This document shows positions 26,801 through 28,194 of a stretch of 35,919 nt of DNA, piece after piece (position 1 is the stretch's first letter; the number at the start of each line of letters is the position of its first letter). The stretch is from a virus. The translations under genes were made by a program, and so were the position numbers. Location of the stretch: positions 1 through 35,919 of IMG/VR virus record IMGVR_UViG_3300044712_000580, one strand, 5' to 3'. Below the pieces are notes generated by a model. That model was not told where the DNA came from, did not search any database, and worked only from the letters and a program-made list of their open reading frames with translations.

Positions 26801-27091
26801 ATGGAACAACTAACTATTGACTTTGGCCATCCAGCCCGCAAAACAGATCCGCAAACATCGCACATTGCTGCGGATATGATTAATTTCCGAAACAAGCATT
26901 TTGCCGTTATCTTGTACGTTCTTACCGAACCAATGGGCAAAGATGGCATTGCAAGGCTTACCGGATTAACAGGAACTCAGGTTGACCGCCGATTGCACGA
27001 AATGGCAAAGGCTGGATTGGTTGAATTGACAGGCAAAAAGGTATTGAGCGATGCAGGCAGGCCGGAAAGGGAATGGAGGAAAAAGTTATGA
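26801..27091 (+). CDS. Winged-helix-like DNA-binding protein
   Basis: 96 aa from the ATG at 26801. FAVILYVLTEPMGKDGIARL, TGLTGTQVDRRLHEMAKAGL and VELTGKKVLSDAGRPEREWR have the spacing of a winged helix (helix-turn-helix plus wing). Short N-terminal TIDFGHPARKTDPQTSHIAA is common in phage proteins of this kind. It overlaps the methyltransferase by ATGA, so the two are coupled; it may control or accompany the methyltransferase. Confidence 0.7.
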   Translation: MEQLTIDFGHPARKTDPQTSHIAADMINFRNKHFAVILYVLTEPMGKDGIARLTGLTGTQVDRRLHEMAKAGLVELTGKKVLSDAGRPEREWRKKL

Positions 27092-28194
27092 CACATGGCA
27101 GCTTATTTTCAGGCATTGGCGGCTTTGATTTAGCCTCTCAATGGATGGGATGGCAAAATCTGTTTCATTGTGAAATGAATCCTTTTGGGCAAAAGGTTTT
27201 GAACCACTATTGGCCGGATGCTGAATTATTTACCGATATTACAAAATCAGATTTTAAAAAGTATGCAAACCAAATTGATATTCTCACCGGAGGATTCCCC
27301 TGCCAGCCGTACAGCCACGCCGGAAAAAGACTTGGCAAAGAAGATGACCGCCACTTGTGGCCGGAAATGCTTAGAGCAATACGGGAAATTCAACCGACAT
27401 GGGTTGTGGGCGAAAACGTTAGCGGCCTTATTAGTTGGAATGGAGGGCTGGTATTCCACGAGGTGCAAACTGACTTGGAAGCTGAAGGGTACGAAGTATT
27501 CCCGGTTGTACTTCCAGCTTGCGCCGTCAACGCTCCCCACCGAAGGGATAGAATTTGGTTTATTGCCTACTCCGGATTGCAGCGACAGACGGAGCGACAA
27601 CAGCAGTCAATGGGGATTGAGCAACTACGCAAAGAACGGCCTATTATTAACACCAACGACCAGGGAAGAACCACAGGATTTGGAGGTATTCAAAAAGAGA
27701 ATGGAGAAATACCCGAATGGAACAACGATTCCGAATTTGGCAACGCAAGTAATGGGATTACTACCAACCCCGCAAGCAATAGACGGAAACGGCACGGGAA
27801 GGGAATTGAGATTGAAAAAGGATTGCAACCGGAACCCGAATCAGCCGGGAAGTTGGAGGGGGGATTTGAAGGATTATGCAGTGCATGGGATGTTGCCGAC
27901 ACCGGCAACCAGGGATTACAAAGGGGCAAGGTCAACGGAAGCATTACAGGAATCAGGCAGGAACCACACAAACAGCCTGCCGGATTCATTCCATCAACCT
28001 GGCAAAACTTCCCAACTCAACCCTCGGTTTGTGGCCGAAATGATGGGGTTCCCGCCGGATTGGTTGGAATTACCGTTTCAAAGCACCGAAACGAAAGCAT
28101 AAAGGCTTATGGTAATGCAATAGTTCCGCAGGTAGCTTTACAAATTTTTAAAGCAATACAGCAAATGGAAAATAATTTTGCCAATCTCACCTAA
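27088..28194 (+). CDS. DNA cytosine-5 methyltransferase
   Basis: 368 aa from the ATG at 27088 (ATGA overlap; an in-frame ATG at 27073 is possible). Motif I SLFSGIGGFDLA (5-16), motif IV GGFPCQPYSHAG with catalytic Cys72, motif VI GENV (108-111), motif VIII HRRDR (151-155), motif X SIKAYGNAIVPQVALQIFKA at the C-terminus. The region between ~165 and 300 is low-complexity and polar (target-recognition region), which is where a second frame is also open. No cognate restriction enzyme is present, so it is an orphan enzyme, probably protecting phage DNA. Confidence 0.95.
   Translation: MTHGSLFSGIGGFDLASQWMGWQNLFHCEMNPFGQKVLNHYWPDAELFTDITKSDFKKYANQIDILTGGFPCQPYSHAGKRLGKEDDRHLWPEMLRAIREIQPTWVVGENVSGLISWNGGLVFHEVQTDLEAEGYEVFPVVLPACAVNAPHRRDRIWFIAYSGLQRQTERQQQSMGIEQLRKERPIINTNDQGRTTGFGGIQKENGEIPEWNNDSEFGNASNGITTNPASNRRKRHGKGIEIEKGLQPEPESAGKLEGGFEGLCSAWDVADTGNQGLQRGKVNGSITGIRQEPHKQPAGFIPSTWQNFPTQPSVCGRNDGVPAGLVGITVSKHRNESIKAYGNAIVPQVALQIFKAIQQMENNFANLT
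27263..28102 (+). CDS. Overlapping ORF inside the methyltransferase gene, conserved-looking LLPTP / LNPRFV protein
   Basis: 279 aa from the ATG at 27263 (an earlier ATG at 27218). Read in the +1 frame relative to the methyltransferase. It is not random: RCKLTWKLKGTKYSRLYFQL, three LLPTP/MLPTP units each with a following D or R-D (FGLLPTPDCSDRR, MGLLPTPQAIDGNG, HGMLPTPATRDYKG) and a C-terminal LNPRFVAEMMGFPPDWLELP. As I recall, LLPTPxAxD and LNPxFVxxMMGFPxxW occur together in phage proteins annotated near or within Dcm-type genes. So both frames probably encode protein. Function unknown. Confidence 0.6.
   Translation: MQTKLIFSPEDSPASRTATPEKDLAKKMTATCGRKCLEQYGKFNRHGLWAKTLAALLVGMEGWYSTRCKLTWKLKGTKYSRLYFQLAPSTLPTEGIEFGLLPTPDCSDRRSDNSSQWGLSNYAKNGLLLTPTTREEPQDLEVFKKRMEKYPNGTTIPNLATQVMGLLPTPQAIDGNGTGRELRLKKDCNRNPNQPGSWRGDLKDYAVHGMLPTPATRDYKGARSTEALQESGRNHTNSLPDSFHQPGKTSQLNPRFVAEMMGFPPDWLELPFQSTETKA

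Follow-up and report, generated by a model that had tools for sequence, protein, structure and literature searches.

A proposed two-chain cytosine methyltransferase encoded in two frames of the same phage DNA

The methyltransferase locus and its nested frame

The stretch of DNA analysed here (the window) comprises 35,919 nucleotides of IMG/VR virus record IMGVR_UViG_3300044712_000580 and encodes, in addition to a cytosine methyltransferase, portal, terminase, major head, Erf-like annealing and HNH genes. The features of the methyltransferase locus are listed below, the conserved motifs of gene A having been placed by alignment of 67 relatives.

27073..28194, + strand: gene A, proposed catalytic subunit of a C5-cytosine methyltransferase, frame 0, 373 aa (PF00145, phrog_363)
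About 27100-27129, + strand: A motif I
27263..28102, + strand: gene B, nested +1 gene of the phrog_1008 family, proposed target-recognition and motif IX subunit, 279 aa plus stop
27263..27544, + strand: N-terminal part of B, over A motifs IV-VIII, beginning MQTKLIF here
27289-27315, + strand: A motif IV, GGFPCQPYS
27412-27420, + strand: A ENV (motif VI)
27535-27567, + strand: A motif VIII region
27563..27643, + strand: B module 1 (LPTPDCSDRRSDNSSQWGLSNYAKNGL), a type present in 10 B proteins at varied positions
27568..28002, + strand: A linker, read out of frame with B modules 1-4, near-neutral (dN/dS 0.84) and only kept open
27644..27736, + strand: B module 2 (LLTPTTREEPQDLEVFKKRMEKYPNGTTIPN), a type present in 13 B proteins
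27737..27892, + strand: B module 3 (contains LLPTPQAIDGNGTGRELRLKKDCN...), a type present in 3 B proteins
27893..28015, + strand: B module 4 (LPTPATRDYKGARSTEALQESGRNHTNSLPDSF...), a type present in 19 B proteins and always the last module
28016..28075, + strand: B motif IX-like segment (LNPRFVAEMMGFPPDWLELP), where A reads about FPTQPSVCGRNDGVPAGL; dN/dS 0.045 in B and 0.40 in A
28111-28131, + strand: A motif X, GNAIVPQ

Gene A was identified as a C5-cytosine methyltransferase from matches to Pfam DNA_methylase (PF00145, 6.6e-45) and to phrog_363 (2e-74), with M6 at 27088 as the conserved start. Motifs I, IV (PCQ), VI (ENV), VIII and X were present in order and with their invariant residues in the alignment of 67 relatives. 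The first-pass annotation, made from the sequence alone, had described this frame as complete; the five motifs that it named were all found, but motif IX was absent from A and was located in B. The A chain is without motif IX and apparently without a recognition domain, and reads FPTQPSVCGxxDG at the motif IX position.

The +1 frame is open over 27218-28102 and gives a 279-aa product from the ATG at 27263 (MQTKLIFS), so that two coding frames lie over 27263-28102 where they had first been placed. When synonymous codons of A were shuffled, frame B of the window acquired 7.9 stops on average and stayed open in 0 of 200 cases. In 89 loci shuffled in the same way, all 89 of which have B open and in the +1 register, the average was 6.8 B-frame stops per locus, and B was open in 20 of 17,800 shuffles.

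A tblastn search with B matched 73 phage records and 210 IMG/VR candidates, from which 80 loci were kept in which the A and B matches overlapped and B was +1 relative to A. In each of 197 relatives, which include 80 loci from Bacteroidota-dominated genomes, B was in the +1 register without an internal stop and stops were seen only at the ends of B; stops in the second frame of homologues, named in the first-pass annotation as grounds for rejecting it, were thus not encountered. Since loci retrieved with a B query are biased toward intact B, 28 additional loci were fetched through A alone as a control, and in all 28 the +1 frame was open over a long stretch and matched B, whereas the +2 frame was closed.

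The A/B pair was present in phages of Paenibacillus, Lacticaseibacillus, Rhizobium, Salmonella, E. coli and Porphyromonas, as well as in phages of Microcystis and other cyanobacteria. BASEL phage Bas75 (locus L126), which infects a laboratory E. coli strain, appears to encode both genes. B without A was sought and none was found, the Lacticaseibacillus, Rhizobium, Salmonella, Paenibacillus and cyanophage loci each having A in the overlapping frame. In Paenibacillus phage records, nested B carries the labels 'g50 internal gene' and 'g62 internal gene'. The initial impression that an overlap of this kind is rare was overstated, the arrangement being widespread in phages and already entered as 'internal gene' in records of Paenibacillus larvae phages. 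A nested +1 CDS annotated 'methyltransferase' was also noted at 1637-2056 of L123 (Streptococcus phage pST), inside an ordinary one-chain methyltransferase that has its own motif IX.

An ATG at the position of 27263 occurs in nearly all relatives, is the best-conserved start and is followed by MQTKL.F or Q[LIT][ST]LF. The latter pattern follows the start in 66 of the 155 B proteins examined, where composition shuffles give an expectation of 1.5 (examples are MTSKKQTSLF in L001 and MESSQEIEQLTLF in L083). The bacterial sliding-clamp binding motif is QL[SD]LF, which Q[LIT][ST]LF resembles, although the resemblance is weak in B of the window itself. Clamp binding by B, if true, would tie methylation to replication.

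Selection along the overlap

Selection was estimated by a simple custom count of dN/dS, in which isolated single-base changes were classed per frame and compared with all possible changes, in a sample of 93 close pairs that are phylogenetically related. For B in the overlap, dN/dS was 0.19 for changes that alter A and 0.23 for changes silent in A (i.e., B-altering changes were approximately five times rarer than B-silent ones), whereas the same B-frame ratio in A-only control DNA outside the overlap was 1.00. This difference indicates that both frames are selected. A neutral pattern in B, the second observation that was to have counted against the overlap, was not seen. In agreement with these values, the similarity of B proteins conditional on A proteins had a median Z of 10.2, compared with 4.4 for the +2 frame.

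Constraint alternates along the overlap and is strong in one frame at a time. Over 27263-27544, dN/dS was 0.075 for A and 0.33-0.57 for B, over 27545-28004 it was 0.84 for A and 0.13 for B, over 28005-28066 it was 0.40 for A and 0.045 for B, and over 28067-28101 it was 0.14 for A and 0.97 for B. In the A-only flanks, dN/dS of A was 0.04-0.05, with a value of 0.05 for motif X beyond the end of B. In A the constrained parts are motifs IV-VIII and X; in B they are the middle of the overlap and LNPRFVAEMMGFPPDW, and in these A is close to neutral. The middle values (0.84 for A against 0.13 for B) indicate that A is hardly selected there beyond openness and that this DNA belongs to B. The claim of a long overlap with both frames under constraint therefore stood, with the qualification that strong constraint falls on one frame at a time. 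Around 28010-28070, FPTQPSVCGRNDGVPAGL of A and LNPRFVAEMMGFPPDW of B overlap on the same DNA, and the two peptides that had been singled out at 28010-28090 were both recognised as family signatures, i.e., FPTQPxxCxxxDG in A and motif IX in B.

These results bear on the reading that only the methyltransferase frame is translated, with the openness and similarity of B arising as side effects of A codons and base composition. Part of B does behave in this manner, as conservation of the B N-terminus is partly forced by A, EDSPAS and TSGRKCLE being dictated by A motifs IV-VI. Beyond that part, synonymous shuffles of A break B, dN/dS of B is 0.2 as opposed to 1.0 in the control, and the middle of the overlap has A neutral and B constrained, so that we regard this reading as extremely improbable.

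Slightly more credit, although still very little, may be given to a programmed frameshift that would join the start of A to B and make B a C-terminal extension of A. The constant +1 register of B and the extension of the B frame upstream of the ATG in many loci are as such a frameshift would have them, but nearly all relatives share the position of an in-frame ATG and no shared slippery site was noticed in an unsystematic look. In addition, motif X is selected in frame 0 past the end of B (A dN/dS 0.05), which requires that A be read through in frame 0.

Gene B as a putative recognition subunit

A profile search with the 279-aa protein, as had been suggested, matched phrog_1008 ('DNA methyltransferase') at 9.8e-32, while no match was found in Pfam, NCBIfam or PADLOC and no solved structure was matched in a profile search against the PDB. 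The same family matches the annotated nested gene of Redbud (a Paenibacillus phage; 1.6e-74), a Salmonella phage 'Mte8-like' protein (6.5e-45), gp72 of mycobacteriophage Dorothy (2.4e-63) and residues 118-460 of the one-chain methyltransferase of Gordonia phage Stultus (1.6e-63). Dorothy gp72 is a separate gene that adjoins gp71, and gp71 is the N-terminal half of a methyltransferase only. In the Stultus protein, LLPTP units and an LNxxFxEWMM segment lie between motifs VIII and X, and the B segment LNPRFVxEMMGFPPDW aligns with the Stultus segment just before motif X (hhalign profile alignment, P 2e-9). Alignment of B with the classical motif IX of an ordinary methyltransferase (LTPRECWRLQGFPDW) was in register but weak (hhalign probability 2%). 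At the DNA level the order of elements is canonical, motifs I-VIII being read in A, the modules and motif IX in B, and motif X in A. Given that phrog_1008 unites B with the recognition and motif IX half of the Stultus enzyme and with a separately encoded mycobacteriophage protein, the likeliest reading is that A and B are two subunits of a single enzyme, A providing catalysis and B recognition.

Intermediate architectures were noted in L120 (Arthrobacter phage 1191A) and L125 (Gordonia phage Stultus), where the modules and motif IX lie partly or wholly in the catalytic frame and remnants of the N-terminal part of B are open in +1.

That B might instead be an independent overprinted protein (e.g., a restriction inhibitor or clamp-binding factor) with no part in the enzyme appears improbable. 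B has a conserved ATG of its own, often followed by the clamp-like Q[LIT][ST]LF, and its similarity to classical motif IX is weak, all of which would suit such a protein. In opposition to this, phrog_1008 spans the C-terminal half of a one-chain methyltransferase as well as a gene beside a methyltransferase that is without that half, B supplies in canonical order the motif that is missing from A, and B was accompanied by A in 197 of 197 relatives. Rather than an unrelated second protein, B would be the recognition and motif IX part of the same enzyme.

Between motifs VIII and IX lie several exchangeable modules, which are carried by B. With boundaries cut by a regular expression on LPTP units, 384 units of approximately 30-50 residues each were obtained from 130 non-redundant B proteins; 26 module types recur in at least three B proteins, many of them at differing positions, and arrays contain 1-6 modules. 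The three LLPTP/MLPTP units first described in the window are present together with a fourth, variant unit (LLLTP). Shuffling of modules is evident from module 1 of the window, which is the first of four here, the second of four in L003 and the third of four in L025. The A proteins of the window and L003 are 94% identical upstream of the module region, 18% identical across it and 69% identical downstream; these values, together with the module positions, form a pattern that points to recombinational exchange of recognition domains. The LPTP modules are, on this basis, probably exchangeable target-recognition domains.

Considered together, the sequence comparisons make it highly probable that the locus encodes a two-chain C5-cytosine methyltransferase with its chains in two frames of the same DNA, A being catalytic and B providing recognition and motif IX. 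A (frame 0) would carry the large catalytic domain with motifs I, IV, VI, VIII and X and a near-neutral linker in the middle, while B, started in the +1 frame at the internal ATG at 27263, would supply the missing small domain, i.e., four LPTP modules and then motif IX. The two proteins would associate into one active enzyme, which would methylate phage DNA at sites set by the modules, and this methylation would shield the phage DNA from host restriction. That B is translated, that it assembles with A, that the modules serve in recognition and that the enzyme counters restriction are steps that we infer from the sequences.

The two-polypeptide C5 methyltransferase M.EcoHK31I (YGGCCR) is like the window pair in having motifs I-VIII and X in a large chain and motif IX in a small chain, the likeness being one of motif distribution. 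Its small chain is said, in Lee et al. 1995, to be encoded in an alternative frame within the large-chain gene; a nested small chain was found in 197 of 197 relatives of the window pair. Motif IX alone is on the small polypeptide of M.EcoHK31I and the rest on the large one, and the recognition domain of this enzyme was predicted in the large subunit rather than the small (PMC3404938). By analogy, a two-chain enzyme with recognition in the middle of A can be envisaged, in which the B modules would be structural and B would give only motif IX. This seems unlikely, if a little less so than an independent B, in view of the neutrality of the A middle where the B modules are constrained and shuffled, and of the LPTP modules that one-chain Stultus has in the place where a recognition domain belongs. 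Unlike M.EcoHK31I, the window pair is phage-borne, and the selection pattern assigns its recognition region, an array of exchangeable modules, to the small chain.

The genes of M.AquI are reportedly not nested. The small subunit of this enzyme also carries motif X, whereas motif X of the window is in the large chain. The catalytic part and the recognition and motif IX part of M.AquI lie on two chains (PMC3404938), an arrangement that Dorothy gp71/gp72 resembles. In Bacillus phages, several recognition domains are arrayed in one chain and resist several restriction systems (PMC12707154). The array of these multispecific C5 methyltransferases (SPR, H2 and relatives) is in the same chain and frame, whereas in the window pair an array of LPTP modules, if these are recognition domains as we infer, would sit in a second protein and in the other frame.

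The 'internal gene' of Paenibacillus larvae phages (Redbud_51, Lily_63) has the same nested +1 arrangement as B of the window, and Redbud_51, like B, belongs to phrog_1008; for these two there is annotation only, as hypothetical protein or DNA methyltransferase. Searches of the literature on overlapping, nested or internal methyltransferase genes found nothing on point, and no paper was found that explains the Paenibacillus larvae phage 'internal gene' or phrog_1008. The principle is already known from M.EcoHK31I and from the nested genes annotated in Paenibacillus phages, while the breadth of the arrangement, the partition of constraint and the shuffling of modules seem to be new.

In-frame stops in related A genes and significance of the arrangement

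In seven loci selected through B, a stop lies inside motif IV of A (GGFP-stop-(P/L)CQP); the window is without such an insert. A motif IV pattern in which six inserted bases were left free matched 66 viral stretches. The first inserted codon was TAA, TGA or TAG in 53 of the 53 stretches found in a methyltransferase context (40 non-redundant) and a stop in none of the 13 outside such a context, and the codon after the motif IV stop was always CTN, CCN or TCN. Six nine-base inserts obeyed the same rule for the stop and the next codon (nine-base insert loci are L303, L319, L320, L333 and L336), and no real case of a three-base insert was found. Loci with the stop are the 53 methyltransferase cases among the pattern matches (L128-L193), together with L004, L026, L050, L054, L064 and L066. 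The pattern was absent from 395 Bacteroidota genomes that were searched for it, and RNA folding around the stop indicated no special structure 3' of it.

In this sister group, purifying selection acts on A on either side, with a dN/dS of 0.06 upstream of the stop and of 0.10 past the end of B. If the stop and the codon after it are skipped, exactly GGFPCQP results, and a proline anticodon can pair with YYN through C-G or U-G pairs. The conserved stop is put forward as a candidate for natural stop-codon hopping by proline tRNA, the alternatives being readthrough of the stop or a further split of A at this point; the YYN rule may be partly due to coding in B. In a 2016 review, a natural hop over an in-frame stop was given as unknown (PMC5009743).

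Two further peculiarities of A were noted. In L244, L245, L248, L250, L251, L255 and L268 (Bacteroides and Parabacteroides genomes), A contains 2-3 in-frame TGA codons while B is intact. These codons are mostly at positions occupied by Trp in relatives, which suggests either that TGA is read as Trp in those prophages or that A is decaying. In L142, L156, L161, L162, L164, L166, L174 and L182, A has an insert upstream of GGFP (QAHHxDYxxPLxxxWLCQxCHHEWH), zinc-ribbon or HNH-like, between motif I and motif IV.

Long same-strand overlaps that are selected in both frames are usually deemed rarities, whereas the one described here is widespread among phages of many hosts and follows a simple logic, with each frame constrained at its own domain and relaxed at that of the other. 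The proposed enzyme would explain the phrog_1008 family, members of which are usually annotated 'hypothetical' or 'DNA methyltransferase', and suggests that a second subunit has been overlooked in many phage methyltransferases that are annotated as single genes and are in fact two-subunit enzymes. It also offers a set of putative recognition modules, the targets of which could be read by methylome sequencing, while the sister group with the conserved stop provides a candidate on which natural stop hopping can be tested directly. A more far-reaching proposal, which we advance tentatively and at somewhat less than an even chance, is that a large family of phages keeps methyltransferase specificity as a shuffled array of modules in a second frame, and that the sister group, in addition, hops CCN-stop-YYN. 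If the former is true, specificity would be recombinable while the catalytic subunit needs only an open linker and, if the latter is true, the hop would belong to a kind of natural in-frame stop hopping without a known example as of 2016.
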